DNA of 64,000 nucleotides, taken from contig NZ_JAAQPH010000001.1 of assembly GCF_011683915.1 (NCBI RefSeq), positions 186,001-250,000 of the forward strand. The letters are read 5' to 3'. How positions within the stretch are numbered: the first letter of the stretch is position 1; each line of letters opens with the position of its first letter. Both the position numbers and the translations under genes were made by a program. This stretch comes from Pelagibius litoralis (GTDB lineage: Bacteria; Pseudomonadota; Alphaproteobacteria; Kiloniellales; Kiloniellaceae). Shown in pieces: positions 3,010 to 17,799 of this stretch. The notes below the pieces were generated by a model, which was not told the origin of the DNA, did no database searches, and saw only the letters and a list, made by a program, of their open reading frames with translations.

Positions 3010-3144
3010 GGGGCATGTCTCCCGGTGGTTGGCTGCCGTCATAAAGCACATCCTCTCTGCCTTATGGTTCGCCTGATATCGAAGTGTGTCGGCATGACGG
3101 AGGCACCTTGCCAAGGCCGGGGGCGAGGCCTAGTCTAAGTGCAG

Positions 3145-3246
3145 TCTCAACGGGGTGCCCAAGACGGGCTGAGAGAAGGGGAAGCGGTCAAGCCGCGGTC
3201 CTGACAACCCGATGAACCTGACCCGGGTAATGCCGGCGGAGGGATT
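3145..3246 (+). promoter_or_regulatory. TPP riboswitch (THI element)
   Basis: The segment contains the conserved THI-element blocks in order: GGGGTGCCC at 3152-3160, GGGCTGAGA around 3166-3174, then ACCCGATGAACCTGA at about 3207-3221, followed by GGGTAATGCCGGCGGAGGGA just after. These form the pyrimidine-sensor and pyrophosphate-sensor arms of a thiamin pyrophosphate riboswitch. It sits 75 bp upstream of thiB on the same strand, so it should repress the thiamine importer when TPP is plentiful. No clear terminator hairpin with a T-run follows, so control at translation initiation is more likely, but that is inference. Confidence 0.95.
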
Positions 3247-3320
3247 TGAGCGGCAGGCCTCTTCTACAAAGACCCACCCACCTCAAAGCCAACCGCCCCA
3301 TAGCCTTATGGAGCGATGCG

Positions 3321-5972: not shown

Positions 5973-6687
5973 GGTTTCGGACCTGACCTTCCGCTATGAA
6001 GATCTGACCATGGTCTTCGATCTCTCCGTGGTGCGGGGGGAATGCCTGGCGCTTTTGGGGCCGAGCGGGGGAGGCAAGTCCACACTGCTCAACCTGATTG
6101 CCGGTTTCGAGAAGCCGCTGTCCGGGCGGATCATGATTGACGGCCGCGACGTCACCGCCCTCAGCCCGGCCGAACGGCCGGTCACCAGCCTGTTTCAGGA
6201 GCACAATCTCTTTGCCCATCTGTCGGTGGCGCAGAATGTGGGGTTGGGCCTGGATCCCGGTCTGCGCCTGGGGCCGGCGGAGCGGGAAACAGTCAGGCAG
6301 GCCTTGGTCCGGGTGGAACTGACCGACCTGGAACACCGCCTGCCGGCGCAACTTTCCGGCGGCCAACGCCAGCGGGTCGCCCTGGCCCGAAGCCTGGTTC
6401 GGCGGCGGCCGCTGCTGTTGCTGGACGAGCCCTTTTCCGCACTCGATCCGGGTTTGCGGTTGGGGATGCTGGATCTGGTGGACCGGCTCCGCCGGGAACA
6501 GGGGCTGACCGTGGTTCTGGTCAGCCACAACCCGCAGGACGCTTTGCGCATCGCGGCAAGGACCGCGTTTCTTTCGGAGGGGCGCATTTTGGCCCAGGGC
6601 CCGACGGAAAACCTGTTGAGCGGCACAGAACCGGCTGCCTTGCGGATGTTCCTCGGTACCTCCCAATCGGGGTCTGGGGACGGCTAA
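5965..6687 (+). CDS. thiQ: thiamine ABC transporter ATP-binding protein
   Basis: A 240-residue ABC ATPase. Visible motifs are Walker A GPSGGGKST at about residues 32-40, the Q-loop SLFQEHNLF around 75-83, signature LSGGQRQ at 130-136, Walker B LLLDEP at 151-156 and the switch histidine in VSHNPQ. The FQEHNLF wording is typical of ThiQ. The ATG at 5965 has a GAGGAGG site upstream and overlaps the end of thiP by 8 bp; a farther TTG at 5923 is less likely. It energises ThiP for thiamine uptake. No convincing terminator is seen after the gene. Confidence 0.95.
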   Translation: MLEVSDLTFRYEDLTMVFDLSVVRGECLALLGPSGGGKSTLLNLIAGFEKPLSGRIMIDGRDVTALSPAERPVTSLFQEHNLFAHLSVAQNVGLGLDPGLRLGPAERETVRQALVRVELTDLEHRLPAQLSGGQRQRVALARSLVRRRPLLLLDEPFSALDPGLRLGMLDLVDRLRREQGLTVVLVSHNPQDALRIAARTAFLSEGRILAQGPTENLLSGTEPAALRMFLGTSQSGSGDG

Positions 6688-6789
6688 TCCTGATTCTCCC
6701 CAGCCTGGCACTACCAGAAGCGGCGGTAATGCTCTATTTTGGCGGCAGATAGGGGTGGCCCCTCCGGCTGAGGTTTCTGGCGCCGGCCG

Positions 6790-9918: not shown

Positions 9919-11592
9919 TCAGCAGCCGCCCAGCGGCTGCAGCAGCCCCCAGCCGAAGGTGCTGTCACGGCCCGGGGCGCCTAAATCCCTGGCGCTGCCT
10001 GTAAGCTTCTGTCCCAGCAGGGTCGGGGTGATGTCGGGGTCCTGTGCCAGGACCAATGCGGCCGCGGCGGCGACAAAGGGGGCGGCGAAAGAGGTTCCGC
10101 TGCTGTAGCGCCCGCCCTTGCCGCTGCGCGCGGACCAGACGTCCACACCCGGCGCGGCGATATCGATGTAGCCTCCACGGTTGGCCTCGCTGTATGGCTG
10201 AAGGGCGGCATCGATGGCGGTGACCGCGACGACATGCTGATAGCCGGCAGGGAAGACGGGGGCTGCATTGGGGCCTTCGTTGCCGGCGGCAGCGATCAGT
10301 ATCATGCCGCTTTCATGGGCGCGCCGGGCGGTCAGGCGCAGAACCTGGTTGCCCGGCCCGGAAAGACTGAGGTTTACGATGCGAACGCCCTGCTGGCCCA
10401 GCCAGTCGATGGCGCGGGCAATGGCATCGGTGGTGCCGACCACGCGGTCGTTGTCCCTTAAACCGAAAATCGCCGCCGCGTAAAGACGGGCGGAGGGTAC
10501 CAGGCCGGAGGTGTTGGAGGCCGGATCGCCGACAATAAGCGAGGCGACGGCGGTGCCATGATCCGGCGGGGCCGGTTTCAATCCGGCGGTCAGGAAATTT
10601 CGCGCCAGTACGCTGCTGTCGCGAAGGGCCGGATGGCTGCGGTCGACGGCGGTATCGATCAGCCCGACATCGACCTCCAGGCGGCAGGCCTGCGATACGT
10701 CGGGCCAGCCGATCAGTTCCCTGGCGTAGTGCCGGGGTTCGGCGGCCGCCTGGGGTGCGTAAAGCGTGTTGGCGTCGAACAGGGTTGCCGGGAAGCTCTG
10801 GCGGAGTGTGTCCAGTGAAGCCGGGACGTCCTGTCCGCCGGGAATGCCGAGGCGGACAAGGGCAAAGCCCAGAACCGGTAACTCCTGCAGCGACCGCACG
10901 GCATAGCCAAGGCCGGTCAACTGCTGTGCCAGCGCGGTGGCTTCCGCCAAGGTGCCGGTGATGGCCAGAACCTCGTCATCCTCCTGATCGGCAGCGGCTG
11001 TGCCGGGAACGGCCAGTGGCGGCAGGTTGGGGACCGACGGGCCGGGCGGCTGCTGTGGGGGCGTGCCCGGAGTGGCGGTGGAGGGGCGTTTGGTACCCGT
11101 CGGGCGCTCCTCACGCGGCGGATCGACCGGTCGCCGGTCCGGGGTGCCGGTTCCCCGGCCTGGATCGATCGGATTGCCGGACGCATCGACTTGGGTGTCT
11201 GTGTCCTTGACCGCACAGATCTGGAGCGGCCGGCGTTGGGCGCTGGTCCACTCGCCGCTCCTTTTGTTCTCGATGCCGAGTTGATACCAGGCGCCCGGGG
11301 ACAGGGCACTGTGGCGGGGCAGGGTCGCGACGATGCTTCTGTCGGTCCAGCGGGTAACCGGCAGTTCTACGCGGACGTAGGAGTCTTTCAGAATGAGCGA
11401 CTTTCCGCCGGCGCGGCCGAAGTTGCTGCCCTTGACGACAATGCGGTCGCCCGGCTCGACACAACTGATCACGCCGATCCCGGTAATTCGGGGCGCATTC
11501 CGCGGGTCATGGGTCGTGTTCTGTGCGGTGGCCGTGGTCGCCAAAGACAGTGCAACCGCCAAAAAGCCCGCAAACCGCAGGGCCCCCAACAC
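9919..11592 (-). CDS. secreted subtilisin-like serine protease (S8) with prodomain-like and IPT-like regions
   Basis: A 557-residue exported protease. Order: signal peptide (1-23, ending ATAQ); an IPT/TIG-like beta domain (about 33-126, PRITGIGVISCVEPGDRIVVKGSNFG); a proline/threonine linker (about 135-200); a segment resembling a subtilase prodomain (about 208-280); and the S8 domain with Asp313 (GLIDTAVD), His345 (DHGTAVASL), oxyanion Asn438 (AAGNEG) and Ser501 (SGTSFAAP). All catalytic residues are present. GTG start with AGAGGA upstream; it begins 3 bp after the anti-sigma gene ends, so it is the last gene of a sigma/anti-sigma/protease operon. No membrane anchor or autotransporter domain follows the protease domain. 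Likely periplasmic or secreted. Confidence 0.93.
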   Translation of the reverse strand: MLGALRFAGFLAVALSLATTATAQNTTHDPRNAPRITGIGVISCVEPGDRIVVKGSNFGRAGGKSLILKDSYVRVELPVTRWTDRSIVATLPRHSALSPGAWYQLGIENKRSGEWTSAQRRPLQICAVKDTDTQVDASGNPIDPGRGTGTPDRRPVDPPREERPTGTKRPSTATPGTPPQQPPGPSVPNLPPLAVPGTAAADQEDDEVLAITGTLAEATALAQQLTGLGYAVRSLQELPVLGFALVRLGIPGGQDVPASLDTLRQSFPATLFDANTLYAPQAAAEPRHYARELIGWPDVSQACRLEVDVGLIDTAVDRSHPALRDSSVLARNFLTAGLKPAPPDHGTAVASLIVGDPASNTSGLVPSARLYAAAIFGLRDNDRVVGTTDAIARAIDWLGQQGVRIVNLSLSGPGNQVLRLTARRAHESGMILIAAAGNEGPNAAPVFPAGYQHVVAVTAIDAALQPYSEANRGGYIDIAAPGVDVWSARSGKGGRYSSGTSFAAPFVAAAAALVLAQDPDITPTLLGQKLTGSARDLGAPGRDSTFGWGLLQPLGGC

Positions 11593-11595
11593 TGG

Positions 11596-12210
11596 TTAGT
11601 TCCTCTCGGCGAAAGTGACCACGTCGCCGCGCGCCTTCAACTTCACCAGCGCTTCTTCGATGTTTGCCGATTCATTTCCGGGAGCCAGCAGGCGCAGCCC
11701 ATAAATCCCGAGGGCCGTCGGGCCGTCGGCGATGGTGGTGCCGGCTGACTGCAGGACCTCGCGGATCTCCTGTTCGGTCGCTGTCGGCGCGAAAGTCACT
11801 TGCAGCACCGGGCCGTTGACCCCGGCAATACCTACATCGCCGCCGGTACGGTCGCTGACACTGATCATCACGCCGGCTTGCACGACCACGGCCAGGCAGG
11901 CGGCAACCGCCAGGGGGCGCCACCAGGACGAGATCGCCACGACCTTACCGGTCGTCGGTGCCTGCTGTTGGTCACCTCTTTTGATTTCCCGCTTCAGGCG
12001 CTGCAGTCCGAGATCACCCGGGCTGTTCTCCAGCGGCTGCTCCTTCACGTTCTGACGCATTGCAGACAGCAACGCGACTTCCTCGCGGGCCTGCACATTG
12101 CTTTCCAGGTAGGCCTCGACCGCCGTCCGCTCTTCCGCCGACAAGCTGCCGTTCACATACCAGGGCAGTAAGAGGTCCAGCTCCTCGTCTCTTTTTCCGT
12201 TCTCAGCCAT
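11596..12210 (-). CDS. membrane anti-sigma factor with subtilase-prodomain-like periplasmic domain
   Basis: 204 residues from the ATG at 12210, which overlaps the sigma stop codon by one base (TGATG), a sign of coupled translation. Residues 1-60 are a helical anti-sigma domain (LLLPWYVNGSLSAEERTAVEAYL) without the Cys/His zinc ligands of ZAS proteins. One transmembrane helix lies at 97-117. Residues 134-204 should be periplasmic and look like a subtilase prodomain: VLQVTFAP, then TEQEIREVLQSAG, ALGIYGLRLL, EEALVKLKARGDVVTFAERN, i.e. the strand-helix-strand-strand-helix-strand order of I9/fervidolysin-type prodomains. The next gene encodes a subtilase. The family call rests on context and pattern. 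Confidence 0.85.
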   Translation of the reverse strand: MAENGKRDEELDLLLPWYVNGSLSAEERTAVEAYLESNVQAREEVALLSAMRQNVKEQPLENSPGDLGLQRLKREIKRGDQQQAPTTGKVVAISSWWRPLAVAACLAVVVQAGVMISVSDRTGGDVGIAGVNGPVLQVTFAPTATEQEIREVLQSAGTTIADGPTALGIYGLRLLAPGNESANIEEALVKLKARGDVVTFAERN

Positions 12211-12764
12211 CACAACAGTCCCATCTCTTTGAGCCCCGCAAGACACTTCATCAGTGCCTTTTTCGCGTGAAACATTCTGGTCTTCACGGTTCCCTCCGGG
12301 CAGCCGACGATGTCAGCTATTTCGCCGTAGGGGAGGTCTTCGAAGAAAGCCAGATGAACCACGCTGCGATGTGCCTCTGAGAGTTGATCGACACAGTGAC
12401 GTACCTGCTTGGCGTTCTGGGCTGCCGAGAGCGCTTCTGCCGGATTTGGTGCATCGTCTTCTGCGATCTCCGGGTCCAACTCGACGTTCTCACCTGGTTT
12501 GCGACGGCGGATCCGGTCGATTGCTTTGTGGTGAGCGATTCCAAGTACCCATGTGCTCACCGCCGATCTTCCTTCAAACCGCCCGGCGCTGCGCCAGACC
12601 TCGAACATAACCTCATTGAGTACGTCGGCGGCATCGAAGGAATCGTTCAATTTAGATCTGATAAATCGGTAAACCCGCCCTTCATACTGCTGGTAGAACT
12701 CGTCCAGGGCGGTTTGGTCGCCGTTGGCCATGCGGGCCAGCAATTCTTGATCTTCCTGTGCCAA
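12210..12764 (-). CDS. ECF-type RNA polymerase sigma factor
   Basis: A 184-residue group IV sigma-70 factor. Region 2 covers about residues 10-80 (FYQQYEGRVYRFIRSKL, DAADVLNEVMFEVWRSAGRFEGRS, VSTWVLGIAHHKAID); region 4 covers about 120-175 (LSEAHRSVVHLAFFEDLPYGEIADIVGCPEGTVKTRMFHAKKAL) with the helix-turn-helix. No regulatory extension. Start is a TTG at 12764 with GGGAG six bases upstream, suggesting low expression. It is followed by its anti-sigma factor and a subtilase on the same strand, and preceded by a structured leader. Confidence 0.93.
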   Translation of the reverse strand: MAQEDQELLARMANGDQTALDEFYQQYEGRVYRFIRSKLNDSFDAADVLNEVMFEVWRSAGRFEGRSAVSTWVLGIAHHKAIDRIRRRKPGENVELDPEIAEDDAPNPAEALSAAQNAKQVRHCVDQLSEAHRSVVHLAFFEDLPYGEIADIVGCPEGTVKTRMFHAKKALMKCLAGLKEMGLL

Positions 12765-12931: not shown

Positions 12932-14137
12932 CTAGGGTTTGTAGATCTCCCTGACGGAACTGATCCCGATGACTGCGCCATTAGCATCAATCGCGCTGAC
13001 CTTCCAGAGGTAGCTTCGGTCCGAAGGCAGGTGCGCAACAGAGAATTCCGCCAGGTTTGCTTCCGTCTGATCGCCTGGGACGAAGGTCCCAACCAACGCA
13101 GCTTGTCCGGCTGTGTCGTCAGAAATAGGACCGGAAACCTGTGCGGCAACCGCATTCGGGTCGGCCGGTTCCGCCGGCCCTGCCGGCGTGGCGAAGAGCT
13201 CAACATGATAGGCCTCGGCGCCGAGCAGGCCCGACCAGGCGAAGCGTGTTTCACTGCTCAGCGCTTCCCCTGGGCGCGGTCCGCTCACCAGGATTTCACG
13301 CAGTGGCGTTTGATCGCCGGCAAAACTGCGCGGGGTCACATAGTATTGCAGCGCCGGCTGTTCCACGGAGACTTCCGGATTGGTGATCCGAAAGCGCACG
13401 AGATTGGTGCCTTCAAGGGCGGTCGGCAGGCGCGGACTGGTGATTACCGTCCGACCGCTGCCGCCGACACCCTGACGCACCAGGGTGAGCGGACGAAATG
13501 TCGGGGCGCCCGCCGTTGTGTTGCCATCGGCCACTTCCCAGACACCGGACAGCAGACTGACGCCGGTCGTATTCAATTCGACCACAGCCCGCAGGTCGCT
13601 GTATTTGGACAGAACGCGGGTCCGCGACTGATCGTCGAAGGTCAGGGAAAGGCGCTGAACCGAGAAAGGCGCTGAGCCAGGCCCCGCCGGTACCACCAGA
13701 AGATCACCGTTTTCATCGCCGCTTTCCGCGCTGTCGTTGAAGTTCCGGCGGACGACGATGGGGCTGTCCTGTTTGATGGCCCGGTACACCAGCGCGCGGG
13801 GAATCTGCAGCGTTTCCCTGAAGATCAGGTTCTCGGGGGAGGTAAGGCCCTCGGTGGTCTGTTCCAGCCGCCGTGAGACGGTACCGACCACGGCGCCGCC
13901 GATCAGCAACTGGGCTTGTTGCGACGCAATGGTTGCGGGCAGAGGGGGCGAGGTCATAAACGATCTGCCCACCTGCCAGGAAACGGCCACGCTGCTGGCG
14001 CCGTTTGTGGCCACCTGCACCTTGGCGGGGGTTGCCGTCACCGAATTGACGGAGGCTTCCGCCGGGATGACGGAAAGGGCGACAGCCGTCAAGACGGCGG
14101 CTTTCGCGAGGGTGAGGCGGGTTTTCTGGGCGCCCAT
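12932..14137 (-). CDS. secreted protein with Ig/FN3-like C-terminus, paralog B
   Basis: 401 residues with a signal peptide (about 1-28, ending AEA). I do not recognise the family. It is a clear paralog of the neighbouring 14256-15479 product: the same order of blocks (PFSVQRLSLTFDDQSRTRVL, LRAVVELNTTGVSLLSG, FRPLTLVRQGVGGSGRTVITSP, LEGTNLVRFRI, LQYYVTP) and the same ending VREIYKP. Residues about 295-401 read as a fibronectin-III-like domain (TRFAWSGLLGAEAYHVELFA ... SYLWKVSAIDANG). No membrane anchor after the signal, so probably periplasmic or outer-membrane-associated. It lies 118 bp after its paralog and 167 bp before the sigma gene. Confidence 0.75.
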   Translation of the reverse strand: MGAQKTRLTLAKAAVLTAVALSVIPAEASVNSVTATPAKVQVATNGASSVAVSWQVGRSFMTSPPLPATIASQQAQLLIGGAVVGTVSRRLEQTTEGLTSPENLIFRETLQIPRALVYRAIKQDSPIVVRRNFNDSAESGDENGDLLVVPAGPGSAPFSVQRLSLTFDDQSRTRVLSKYSDLRAVVELNTTGVSLLSGVWEVADGNTTAGAPTFRPLTLVRQGVGGSGRTVITSPRLPTALEGTNLVRFRITNPEVSVEQPALQYYVTPRSFAGDQTPLREILVSGPRPGEALSSETRFAWSGLLGAEAYHVELFATPAGPAEPADPNAVAAQVSGPISDDTAGQAALVGTFVPGDQTEANLAEFSVAHLPSDRSYLWKVSAIDANGAVIGISSVREIYKP

Positions 14138-14255: not shown

Positions 14256-15479
14256 CTATGGCTTATAAATTTCTCTCACTTCGCTTGCCCCCAGCATCAC
14301 CCCATCCTTACCGATCGCCTTAACCATCCAGCGGTAGCGCCTGTCCGGGGGCAGGTGGGCCAGGGTGAAGTCCTTCAGGCGGGTTTCGGTAACGGCGCCG
14401 GGCAGGACGATCCCGGTCAGCGGTCCATTCCCTGACGGTGCGGCATCGGGTGCGGGATCCAGGGGCAGGTTGGCAACGACCTCATCCTGGGCGACAGGGA
14501 GTTCGGCGGGCCCTGGGTCGCCCCGATAGAGCTCAAGCTTATAGGCCTCCGCCCCTGGCACGGCCTGCCAGGCAAACCGGGTTGTCTGGGTTAGCGGGGT
14601 GCCTTCGCTTGGGCTGGTGATCAACAGCAGGCGGGGTTCCTGCTGGTCGGGCAGCGGGCTTTCCGGCGTCACGTAGTACTGCAGTTCCGGCTCATCGAAG
14701 ACTCTGCCGGGCTCCGTAATGTTCAAGCGGACGAGATTGGTTCCCTCAAAGCGCGTCGGCAGCGCCGGGCTGGTGATAAGAACGCGCCGGCCGCCGGCGA
14801 CGTTCTGGCGCACCAGGGCGAGGGGGCGGAAAATCGGCGTACCGGCGGTCGTTGTCGCCGGGGCATATTCCCACTGCCCGACAATAAGGCCGGTGCCCGT
14901 TGTGTTGATCTCCGCCACGGCCCGCAGCCGGCTGCCCTTCGGCAGGACTTTCACCCGGGAGCGGTCGTCGAAGGTGAGGGACAGGCGGCTGATCGAGAAG
15001 GGCTCCGAGCCGGGACCTGTCGGAAAGAGAGCGACCGCTGCCGTGTCGGGGGGGAGCGCGCTGGTGTCCGTAAAAGTTCGTGTAAGGAGGATCGGCGCTC
15101 CGGATTTTACAGCGCGAAAAGCGACACCCTGGGGGATAACGATTGTCTCGGTCGCGGACCTGACCTCGGTCATCCCGCCCGCACCGGTGAAGGAACGTGA
15201 GAGCGTGCCGCCGACCGTGCCGGCCAAGAGCCCACCGACGAAGAGTTGTGCATTGGGTGAAGAACTGGTTCCGGGAAGCGCAGTAGGAGAAAGCCGCGTC
15301 AGTTGCCAGACGACGGTGACGGTCGAAGGTCCTGTTAGCGAGATACCGGCCCGGTCCGGCGTCACAGTGACGTTAAGGGTCTGCGCCTGCGACGCCGGTG
15401 CCATGATCAGCATACAGGCCAAGCCGATTAACAGCGCCGAAATACCGAGCAACGATCTCCGCATGGTTAAGCCCCTCAA
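14256..15479 (-). CDS. secreted protein with Ig/FN3-like C-terminus, paralog A
   Basis: 407 residues; signal peptide MRRSLLGISALLIGLA with cleavage near SQAQ if the second Met is used, five residues after the first. The N-terminal beta-rich region (LNVTVTPDRAGISLTGPSTV) is followed by the shared paralog blocks (PFSISRLSLTFDDRSRVKVL, LRAVAEINTTGTGLIVG, LEYY-type LQYYVTP). The C-terminal FN3-like domain has TRFAWQAVPGAEAYKLELY and YRWMVKAIGKDG, ending VREIYKP as in paralog B. Its start overlaps the barrel gene stop by 4 bp, so it is co-translated with the outer-membrane protein. Function unknown. Confidence 0.78.
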   Translation of the reverse strand: MRGLTMRRSLLGISALLIGLACMLIMAPASQAQTLNVTVTPDRAGISLTGPSTVTVVWQLTRLSPTALPGTSSSPNAQLFVGGLLAGTVGGTLSRSFTGAGGMTEVRSATETIVIPQGVAFRAVKSGAPILLTRTFTDTSALPPDTAAVALFPTGPGSEPFSISRLSLTFDDRSRVKVLPKGSRLRAVAEINTTGTGLIVGQWEYAPATTTAGTPIFRPLALVRQNVAGGRRVLITSPALPTRFEGTNLVRLNITEPGRVFDEPELQYYVTPESPLPDQQEPRLLLITSPSEGTPLTQTTRFAWQAVPGAEAYKLELYRGDPGPAELPVAQDEVVANLPLDPAPDAAPSGNGPLTGIVLPGAVTETRLKDFTLAHLPPDRRYRWMVKAIGKDGVMLGASEVREIYKP

Positions 15480-17572
15480 TAGCTCACCGGCAACGAGAGC
15501 CGGAGTGTCGTGAAGGCCTGGTACTGAACATCGTCTTCCAAGCTCTCAAAGTCATCGTTCCTGGTTTCCTGAAGAAAACCGTTGAAGGCCAGGGCGACAC
15601 CCAGCTTGTTTGCATCAGGCTCGCGCAGGGTCCAGACGACCTCGCCGCCGAAGCTGCTGCTGTCCGGTGTGTCGCCGTCGCCGGTGCGAACGTTCAAATT
15701 ATAGTTCAATGAAGCCGTCAGGGTCTCGGGGATCACTGTGATATCGGCGGAAAGGCCGGCATTGATCGTGCGGCTGGTTTTGAGGAGATCGCGATCCTCG
15801 AAGACATCGTACTGCACGTTGGGCGACAGGGTAAGCCAATCGTCGATCAGGATATAGGCGCTTAACCCTGTGGTATTGTTGATAGAATCGCTGCTGAAGC
15901 CGGTCTGGTCCTCAAAGGTGTAGAGCGTATGCGAAAGGTTCCAACTCCAGGTGGCGTAGTTGGAGCCTGTGCTCAAGGTCAGCGAACGGCTCTGATTGTC
16001 GGCGTCGTCTTCCGGGAAGTCACTGGAGGTCTCGACCCGCTCGATGTCCGTTACGCTGGCTGTCAGGCCGAAGAACGGCTGACCGAACCATGGCAGGCTG
16101 CCGTCCTCCAGGGGCTCAACAAAGGGCGTATAAGTCCCGTTGAAGTAAGCATTTACGGTGCGGTCGGTCGGCAGAAAGTCGAAGTCGTCGACATTGCTGA
16201 GCTGGTGGTCGACGCGCAGCTGGGCGGCGAATTCGTCCCAGAAAAAGTCGGTGAAGACCGAGGTCGTTTCCCGGTCGGCCTGCAGCGAGGGGTTGGCGAG
16301 GCTCTGGAAGAAGGTATCGACCTGCTCGCGCTGTGCGCCGAAGGTCCAGTTGAAGGTACTGCCACCCAGGGTGCTGCCGCGCAGCGGCTCGAGCGAGGCC
16401 AGCACAGAGTAGGCATTCGCGGTTTCCGGGGCAAAGCCCGTGTCCTTGCCGTCGAAGTCGAAGGTCGCTTCGGCAAACTCACCGCGAACCCGCAGGGCTT
16501 CGTCGAACCAAAGGGTGTCGGCTGCGACCGACCAGCCGTCACCGTCATTGATCACTTCGTCGGTGCCGATACCAAAGCCGCCGTCACTGCCTTCGCCGTT
16601 GTAGTAGATTCCCGTGAGCAGGATGTTGTCCTTGAGCGCCTCGATGGGCCTTACCGAGATCGAACCGCCTTCGATGCGATCTTCGTCGTGACTGATGCCC
16701 AGGACGTGACGCGTGCCGACGATGGATTCCGTGCGCAGCATGAATCCGGTTGCACTGATTCTTTCGTCGGCGGTACCGGCCCTGACGGAAACGCCACGCC
16801 GGTTGAAGCCCGACATGATCAGGCTTTCAATGCCGGTATCATGATTACCGGCGGTCAGGCCGGCAAAGAAGTCCTCGTTTTCATAGTCGCCGTCCAGGCG
16901 GTACTCGCCGAGGTCGATGTTGCGCTCGTTGAGGCCCAATTCAAGTTGGGAGTTGTAGAGATAGTTGCCTTGCAGGGATACGCGCCAGTTCTCGTCGCCC
17001 GCGGCTGCTTCCAGGTTGCCGCCGCTTTCTGCCGTGACATGTTGAGGGGGCGTGTCGATGCCGCCGTCCAGGACCCGCGCATTGACTTCGCCTGCGAGGT
17101 CGGCTCTCACCGACAGATCCCGGATCAGTTCCGAATGTCGCACCTCCAGGAACCAGGCGCCCCGTTCCACGATGCTGCCGTCTTCACCCCGTTCGACGAG
17201 GCGTACAACGTGTTCGCCGGTCGAAAGCGCCTCTGGCGGATTGAGCGTCAGTTGGCCAGGGGCGGTCACCGCAAAAGCGGTTACGTCGATGTCGTCCAGT
17301 TCGACGGCTAGGCGCGGATACACTGCCGGATCGAGATCGTCCGGTAGGATGATGACGATCGGATCGTTGCGCCCGTGTGTTTCGCCGGTCGCGGCCTGCA
17401 GCTCCGGGACCCAATCCTGGGCCCAGGCGTCCTGCACGCAAAAAGTCAGGCCAGCCACCAAGGCTGTCCCACACATAAGGTTTAGAACCGGTGCCCCTAG
17501 AGCAGCCTTGCGTCGGCTACCCATAAACCCCGAAGGCGTGGCGCCAACGGCGACACGTCTTACGTTACGCAT
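15476..17572 (-). CDS. outer-membrane beta-barrel protein with N-terminal Ig-like domain
   Basis: 698 residues. A signal peptide ends at AWAQ (about residue 52 from the ATG at 17572; a start at Met17 would give a more usual length). Residues about 55-150 form a beta-sandwich-like domain (IVIILPDDLDPAVYPRLAVELDD, LSTGEHVVRLVERGEDG). From about 165 to the end there are many alternating amphipathic strands with frequent aromatic ends and acidic loops (e.g. NWRVSLQGNYLYNSQ, GLSAYILIDDWLTLSPNVQYDVF), and the last residues LRLSLPVSY end in an aromatic, the usual barrel-assembly signal. I do not recognise a specific family. First gene of the cluster; AGGGGA lies upstream of the start; 4-bp overlap with the next gene. 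Confidence 0.8.
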   Translation of the reverse strand: MRNVRRVAVGATPSGFMGSRRKAALGAPVLNLMCGTALVAGLTFCVQDAWAQDWVPELQAATGETHGRNDPIVIILPDDLDPAVYPRLAVELDDIDVTAFAVTAPGQLTLNPPEALSTGEHVVRLVERGEDGSIVERGAWFLEVRHSELIRDLSVRADLAGEVNARVLDGGIDTPPQHVTAESGGNLEAAAGDENWRVSLQGNYLYNSQLELGLNERNIDLGEYRLDGDYENEDFFAGLTAGNHDTGIESLIMSGFNRRGVSVRAGTADERISATGFMLRTESIVGTRHVLGISHDEDRIEGGSISVRPIEALKDNILLTGIYYNGEGSDGGFGIGTDEVINDGDGWSVAADTLWFDEALRVRGEFAEATFDFDGKDTGFAPETANAYSVLASLEPLRGSTLGGSTFNWTFGAQREQVDTFFQSLANPSLQADRETTSVFTDFFWDEFAAQLRVDHQLSNVDDFDFLPTDRTVNAYFNGTYTPFVEPLEDGSLPWFGQPFFGLTASVTDIERVETSSDFPEDDADNQSRSLTLSTGSNYATWSWNLSHTLYTFEDQTGFSSDSINNTTGLSAYILIDDWLTLSPNVQYDVFEDRDLLKTSRTINAGLSADITVIPETLTASLNYNLNVRTGDGDTPDSSSFGGEVVWTLREPDANKLGVALAFNGFLQETRNDDFESLEDDVQYQAFTTLRLSLPVSY

Positions 17573-17799
17573 TATCCCCTGCCTTTCGCTCCACCCCCCA
17601 GCGGTCGAAAAGAGGCGACTCTCCCACTATCGGACACCTAATATCCTGAAAGTGTAAAGAAAGGAAGGCGCAGATTGGTATCCAGGCCTTTTTTGTATAG
17701 CCGACCCCTAACCTCCGTCGTGTGCCACCTCTTGCTGCTTCGATTGCTGATCCTTAGGCTGAATCCTAATAATGCGCTCAATTTTCTGGGGAAATACCC

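Follow-up and report, generated by a model that had tools for sequence, protein, structure and literature searches.

The three-gene locus and the anti-sigma periplasmic domain

The window, i.e. the whole stretch of 64,000 nucleotides of Pelagibius litoralis DNA analyzed here, belongs to a genome of 6.03 Mb, whose closest relatives are labelled as the same genus (Pelagibius). On its minus strand lie, side by side, the genes for a sigma factor of the extracytoplasmic function (ECF) type, for a membrane-bound anti-sigma factor (AS) and for an exported protease of the S8 (subtilase) family. Their features are reported below. AS residues are numbered from the first GTG: residues 134–204 of a preliminary description, made from the sequence alone, correspond to 147–216 here.

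12210..12764, minus strand: ECF-type sigma-70 factor, 184 amino acids (aa), matching Sigma70_r2, Sigma70_r4_2 and TIGR02937
11596..12246, minus strand: anti-sigma factor AS, 216 aa from GTG 12246 or 203 aa from ATG 12210
11857..11925, minus strand: single membrane span of AS, residues 108–130, a hydrophobic stretch read from the sequence and aligning in relatives
11821..11838, minus strand: AS linker motif DVGIAG, residues 137–142, proposed site-1 cleavage motif, from column statistics of 95 S8-linked AS and register match to the S8 junction
11599..11808, minus strand: prodomain-like periplasmic domain of AS, residues 147–216, from family-level PF22148 matches, AlphaFold2 and PDB fold matches
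9919..11592, minus strand: exported S8 protease, 557 aa, matching PF00082, with intact triad
11521..11592, minus strand: signal-peptide-like N terminus of S8, read from the sequence
11260..11493, minus strand: weak TIG-like region of S8, residues 34–111 (PF01833, 15.5 bits, below the cut-off of 20.9)
10765..10986, minus strand: prodomain-like segment of S8 itself, residues 203–276, from model secondary structure and a weak profile match to the AS domain
10732..10770, minus strand: presumed maturation junction of S8, residues 275–287 from the anchor Asn, from the alignment of 95 S8 proteins
9946..10671, minus strand: S8 catalytic domain, residues 308–549 (PF00082; D313, H345, N438, S501)

The preliminary description had reported the three genes on one strand, with a 1-base overlap and a 3-bp gap. 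All three are indeed found there, on the minus strand: the S8 gene begins after a gap of three bases from the AS stop, and a start at the internal ATG (12210) makes AS overlap the sigma stop by one base, so that both spacings are correct for this choice of start. The sigma factor is recognized in Pfam by Sigma70_r2 (61.1 bits, E 9e-17) and Sigma70_r4_2 (52.2 bits, E 5e-14), and in NCBIfam by TIGR02937 (102 bits, above cut-off). For AS, whose gene adjoins that of the sigma factor, the anti-sigma matches are below cut-off: zf-HC2 scores 15.3 bits (cut-off 22.2) and NF052375 43.6 bits (cut-off 100). The protease matches PF00082 with 130.8 bits, and Asp313, His345, Asn438 and Ser501 are present; its activity is predicted from the catalytic Asp, His and Ser and from the subtilisin fold.

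The periplasmic part of AS had been likened to a subtilase prodomain, and structure prediction with a fold search had been suggested as a check. Both return a prodomain-type fold: for residues 147–216 AlphaFold2 predicts a beta-alpha-beta-beta-alpha-beta fold (predicted local distance difference test, pLDDT, 90.5), and the PDB fold matches of the model include subtilisin propeptides and POIA1, with no match listed by Foldseek at E <= 0.001. In Pfam, the sole match of the excised domain is PF22148, Fervidolysin_NPro-like, at 17.1 bits, below the cut-off of 21; the whole AS protein scores 13.7 bits, and nothing in the genome of the window matches PF22148 at E <= 0.1. A same-genus relative scores 23.9 bits, above the cut-off. 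At E <= 1, PF22148 matches 14 of the 20 AS domains from the order and 36 of 70 AS domains (window included; best E 1.6e-5), any other family matching at most 3. As judged from these sequences, the prodomain likeness is beyond chance and visible at family level, the window copy itself remaining below the cut-off. Five Pelagibius genomes have weak PF22148 matches at their contig ends, which were rejected as further copies: L221 falls, by eye, in an HMG-CoA-lyase-like frame, and L222–L225 are devoid of an anti-sigma match.

The domain is C-terminal in the anti-sigma factor and does not precede an S8 catalytic domain in one chain, and is therefore called prodomain-like, rather than a prodomain. 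In true propeptides, a C-terminal tail fills and blocks the subtilase active site. The Pelagibius AS chain ends with the last strand of the domain, where such a tail would start; Kiloniella AS copies extend 7 or 11 residues further. Because of the missing tail, recognition by the protease fits better than its inhibition. The periplasmic domain of AS is best read, on the strength of the model and of the family-level matches, as a divergent fervidolysin-type subtilase prodomain.

A similar segment had also been noticed in the protease, just ahead of its catalytic domain. In the predicted model this segment (about 203–276) shows a beta-alpha-beta-beta-alpha-beta order, the same as the AS domain, and a weak profile match joins the two. 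In hhalign, the AS-domain profile (A2) and the S8-prodomain profile (A3) align with probability 10.9 and P 0.0028. With wider sets, the AS domain scores 16.9 against the partner prodomain, above six other S8 segments (14.7 at the most), the reversed segment (12.6) and every one of 60 column shuffles (maximum 16.3). The S8 segments are more diverged than the AS domains, PF22148 matching 2/19 and 0/51 of them. PDB sequence searches found no propeptide, either with the AS-domain profile or with the S8-prodomain profile. When prodomain and catalytic domain were searched together, one of the 60 matches listed (pro-subtilisin E, 3whi_A) extends into the propeptide (query 59–355). In the fold list of the S8 model (VIA), the 50 matches listed all lie on the catalytic part only.

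Conservation of the gene neighborhood

Relatives of the AS protein are found in 22 of the 61 genomes of the order. Of 20 places taken from them, one (L053) is a fragment without the domain and one (L048) is cut by a contig end; in all the remaining 18 the S8 gene adjoins AS, and in 15 the sigma gene and the upstream genes described below are present as well. Outside these 20 places, second AS copies with the domain occur in Kiloniellaceae (L147 and L148, at about 5977–6693), with no sigma or protease gene found nearby.

The domain-only profile A2 gives matches in at least 16 of 385 genomes of the class and at least 31 of 398 of the phylum, with 41 distinct places outside the family of the window. 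In 35 of these 41, AS has an S8 gene no more than 0.7 kb away; in three a C14 caspase is near (directly adjacent in L121, at 2.0 kb in L129 and at 2.6 kb in L131); the last three (L216, L217, L218) are weak and not recognizable as anti-sigma genes. By comparison, 101 S8 genes are present in the approximately 182 Mb of 35 of the genomes with matches, corresponding to an S8 gene in about 0.6% of random 10-kb surrounds. The S8 linkage in distant relatives is thus very strong.

A scan of genome contigs with profile A1, from which the best 80 of 172 loci were kept, includes among these Pelagibius, Kiloniella, Methylophaga, Variovorax, Dyella, Marinobacterium and bins of Nitrospirota. Pooling of loci and collapsing of those with identical last 100 residues left 119 AS with a domain match: 95 have an S8 gene within 3 kb, 18 a C14 caspase instead, 3 are cut by contig ends and 3 have neither. 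A sigma gene lies within 1.5 kb in 91 of the 95 S8-linked and 17 of the 18 C14-linked unique AS. Excluded from the counts are the false L216, where the AS-domain profile matches weakly and repeatedly within one very long reading frame of 5619 aa; L053 and L192, one and the same fragment, without domain; L217 and L218, where no AS was found; L220, S8-linked, whose AS has no domain match at threshold; and 17 duplicates.

Gene order is variable: in L114 and L118 the S8 gene is found upstream of the sigma gene, and in L074 and L117 AS sits between the two on the opposite strand. A Methylocapsa plasmid record outside these sets, found with the AS of L081, carries the S8 gene, the sigma gene and an AS called hypothetical; a plasmid search with the AS of the window gave no match. 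Beyond what the preliminary description had claimed, the sigma, AS and S8 genes form a module conserved in Proteobacteria and found sporadically in bins of Nitrospirota and Methylomirabilota. The near-constant neighborhood of AS and an exported protease in the relatives examined suggests that the protease itself signals when the genes are to be switched on.

The C14 caspase replaces S8 in one mainly betaproteobacterial clade, whose named members are mostly Burkholderiales and Rhodocyclaceae, and the AS domain is retained. Five of these caspases, checked in Pfam, all match PF00656 (E < 1e-33), and the other 13 were assigned by a profile from those five; their export was judged by eye. PF22148 weakly matches 3 of 10 C14-linked AS domains. 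In a quick sigma-factor tree, 16 of 17 C14 rows fall in one group (support 80), beside three S8-linked rows, two of them from Rhodoferax; on this tree the protease swap takes two changes, L121 and L131 lying on very long branches. This grouping indicates that the protease slot changed at least once and that the AS domain stayed. In L129 (4461–5132, minus strand) the gene adjoining AS codes for a small membrane protein with a segment that is AS-domain-like by eye; a transporter-like gene and the caspase gene follow.

The linker motif and the presumed maturation junction

The AS linker, running from the membrane to the domain, is variable except at one conserved spot. In the 95 S8-linked AS, the five columns of this motif read Y31/F22/L16/V9, any residue, T37/A19/P13/L12, A71/L22 and S43/G42; DVGIAG, in the window, is a weak form of it. 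A pattern initially drawn for the motif was abandoned in favor of these column statistics, since it fitted only 58 of the 95 linkers and left out the window.

The five residues were compared with the stretch that follows the prodomain-like segment of the partner S8, anchored on the conserved Asn of its last strand (Asn in 83 of 95). L118, whose protease segment could not be aligned, was left out, giving 94 pairs in 29 clusters. At offset +3 cognate pairs score 7.2, as compared to 3.9 for permuted ones (standard deviation 0.8), and none of 2000 permutations reaches 7.2; the other nine offsets score below zero. A scan of 13 by 12 registers has its top score at the +3 register, with all positive scores on that diagonal. 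With 49 and with 21 clusters, no permutation out of 5000 attains the observed score; with 6 clusters, p is 0.091. The resemblance of the linker motif to the maturation junction of the protease, in this one register, is a firm result of the sequence comparison, and an extra match within true AS–S8 pairs is probable. A conserved AS linker motif which resembles the presumed maturation junction of the partner protease is new here.

With the end of the subtilisin propeptide as the starting point of the count, P4 falls at the same distance, and P1 on the A/L position of the motif. Subtilases favor a hydrophobic P4, and this placement would suit that taste. The preliminary description had proposed that the protease recognizes or cleaves AS as if it were a prodomain, freeing the sigma factor, or else that the AS domain inhibits the protease: the linker motif is an unexpected pointer toward the cleavage version.

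In the C14-linked AS, an aligned linker column is Arg in 16 of 18 cases, against 14 of 95 in the S8-linked ones, and orthocaspases cleave after positively charged residues, according to excerpts of PMC6426788. Arg was nevertheless rejected as evidence of caspase cleavage: the swap is approximately one event, and the S8-linked sisters L189 and L204 already carry Arg. With about one clade and two such sister rows, little weight can be placed on it.

Proposed mechanism, alternatives and related systems

In the mechanism favored here, the S8 protease docks on a prodomain mimic in AS and cuts the linker as a dedicated site-1 protease, releasing the sigma factor; its probability is put at somewhat less than one half (about 0.47). 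The periplasmic domain would be a captured, diverged subtilase prodomain, acting as receptor for the neighboring S8 protease. The active, mature enzyme, presumably periplasmic, would bind it as it binds its own prodomain. Since such folds have the N-terminal end of their first strand next to the C-terminal end of their last one, docking would place the linker near the active site. The protease would then cut the short linker at the motif, which mimics the protease's own maturation site. Completing the destruction of AS would fall to a general site-2 protease, and the freed sigma factor would raise expression of its own operon. The steps from docking to autoregulation, and the sigma targets, are what we infer; linkage, fold and motif strengthen the interpretation given in the preliminary description and make it plausible.

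A number of observations weigh against this mechanism. ACT and RRM folds score a Z similar to that of the prodomain matches of the AS-domain model, and the window domain is below the PF22148 cut-off. The profile match between the AS domain and the partner prodomain is too weak for direct homology to stand as an argument of its own. The absence of the inhibitory tail in Pelagibius speaks against a simple reading that includes inhibition, and the AS domain is kept where a caspase takes the place of S8. As for the linker, two of the nine other offsets reach nominal p values of 0.016 and 0.006; in the register scan z is 4.1 at the best register, 4.4 and 4.5 at two neighbors sharing letters with it, and up to 3.6 off the diagonal, which indicates that relatedness inflates z. 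Tree-aware tests of the linker/junction pairing, in which supported branches provided no more than 10 independent pairs, gave no significant result. These weaknesses of the pairing statistics lower the odds of the mechanism slightly.

A different role for the same domain, unlikely on balance, would be that of a membrane-held inhibitor or immunity domain for S8, whose occupancy reports exported protease to the sigma factor, AS being left uncut. The prodomain-like fold and the S8 linkage would be expected in this case too, and stand-alone prodomain-like inhibitors exist, POIA1 being among the fold matches; but the Pelagibius domain has no tail to fill the active site, S8 already has a prodomain-like segment of its own, and the conserved linker motif is left unexplained. 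It is likewise improbable that the domain senses some other signal, for example one tied to the 698-, 407- and 401-aa proteins encoded upstream, the protease being a mere output of the sigma factor, as for RpoE6 of S. meliloti. The synteny of those upstream genes in 15 of the 18 S8-linked loci of the order, and the persistence of the AS domain beside the caspase and in two orphan copies, are in line with such a role, as is the increase of a divergent serine protease gene upon RpoE6 overexpression, reported in excerpts of PMC6180224; yet neither a prodomain-like sensor nor a junction-like linker motif is predicted by it. Finally, a generic ferredoxin-like sensor (of the ACT or metal-binding type), with convergent prodomain likeness, would account for the ACT and RRM scores, the weak direct profile match and the sub-threshold window copy, but is very unlikely, given that PF22148 is singled out (36/70 versus at most 3 for other families) and S8 is linked in 35 of 41 places.

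If docking and linker cleavage by S8 occur as proposed, receptor, substrate and protease would all derive from one enzyme family, and the cell would count its exported protease by means of a copy of the prodomain. In most regulated-proteolysis systems the sensor of the signal is the site-1 protease. The locus would be a compact three-gene switch from protease to transcription, and a function would be provided for anti-sigma genes called hypothetical in at least one public record, the Methylocapsa plasmid. A wider generalization is doubtful: a widespread proteobacterial module in which AS carries decoys for its partner's prodomain and maturation site alike, sigma release reports both maturation and export of the protease, and one lineage has swapped in an exported orthocaspase, with a linker Arg suiting the cleavage preference of that enzyme.

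With the fervidolysin-type/I9 prodomains (PF22148, POIA1, subtilisin propeptide) the AS domain shares predicted fold, strand-helix order and a family-level sequence match; it differs in being attached to an anti-sigma region within a distinct membrane protein, and, for the window copy, in scoring below the curated cut-off and in missing the C-terminal tail. RseA–DegS and other site-1/site-2 systems likewise feature a membrane anti-sigma factor, with a periplasmic domain that should be cleaved ahead of the site-2 step; DegS-type proteases are of a different family and sense misfolded porins. In B. subtilis, the anti-sigma factor RsiV uses its own outer domain as the receptor for an enzyme, as proposed here for AS: it binds lysozyme, and binding renders RsiV susceptible to site-1 cleavage (excerpts of PMC4183432). 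In that system the cut is made by signal peptidase and the signal is a foreign enzyme, whereas here one native protease would be ligand, cutter and signal.

For group ECF26, the adjacency of sigma gene and serine protease gene is already known. The ECF26 gene rpoE6 of S. meliloti and the serine protease gene SMa0142 are arranged divergently, an arrangement widely conserved in ECF26, and SMa0142 is among the RpoE6 targets (PMC6180224, in excerpts). The rpoE6-ecfR6 system thus also joins an ECF sigma factor, a membrane anti-sigma factor and a serine protease gene; it differs in the divergent gene order, and the excerpts of that study liken the C-terminal domain of the anti-sigma factor to that of RsiW, describe the activation mechanism as hypothetical, without assigning the protease a part in it. 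At a second S8 locus in the genome of the window (432–3151 of L132, on contig C38), the S8 gene and an ECF sigma gene diverge, and an anti-sigma gene comes after the latter, in an order which resembles the ECF26 arrangement; this second anti-sigma factor matches zf-HC2 and DUF3379 at sub-threshold scores, and no prodomain-like domain was detected in it. ECF54 also has proteases in its neighborhood, subtilases and carboxypeptidases, along with CHAT proteins, but is proposed to act without an anti-sigma factor, by proteolysis of the sigma factor (PMC8999054, in excerpts). Searched by term, a classification of class I anti-sigma factors (PMC7406223) yielded no mention of subtilisin or prodomain, and a Bradyrhizobium ECF paper (PMC3420878) none of protease or peptidase. 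A search of the open-access literature, most subscription journals being outside its reach, found no anti-sigma factor with a subtilase-prodomain-like domain.

The genes upstream of the sigma factor, all on the minus strand, are:

12932..14137, minus strand: upstream gene, 401 aa, without Pfam or NCBIfam match above cut-off
14256..15479, minus strand: 407-aa paralogue of the 401-aa gene, 45% identical, without Pfam or NCBIfam match above cut-off
15476..17572, minus strand: 698-aa protein, first gene of the block, without Pfam or NCBIfam match

The tandem 401-aa and 407-aa paralogues and the 698-aa protein are syntenic with the sigma, AS and S8 genes in the 15 order-level loci mentioned above, and an apparently similar arrangement was seen, by eye, on a Chromatiales contig (L141). 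On the 5' side of the 698-aa gene (17560–17660, minus strand), ACTTTCAGGATATTAGG or a near copy is present in five of the six Pelagibius loci compared, and GTGGGAGAGTCGCC, with a G-rich stretch reaching the start codon, in all six. Rfam gave no match for this block and the genome holds no second perfect copy of ACTTTCAGGATATTAGG; the block may possibly represent the promoter of the operon with a structured leader. Elsewhere in the window, a thiamine pyrophosphate (TPP) riboswitch lies at 3141–3262 on the plus strand, scoring 60.1 bits versus a gathering score of 54.3.

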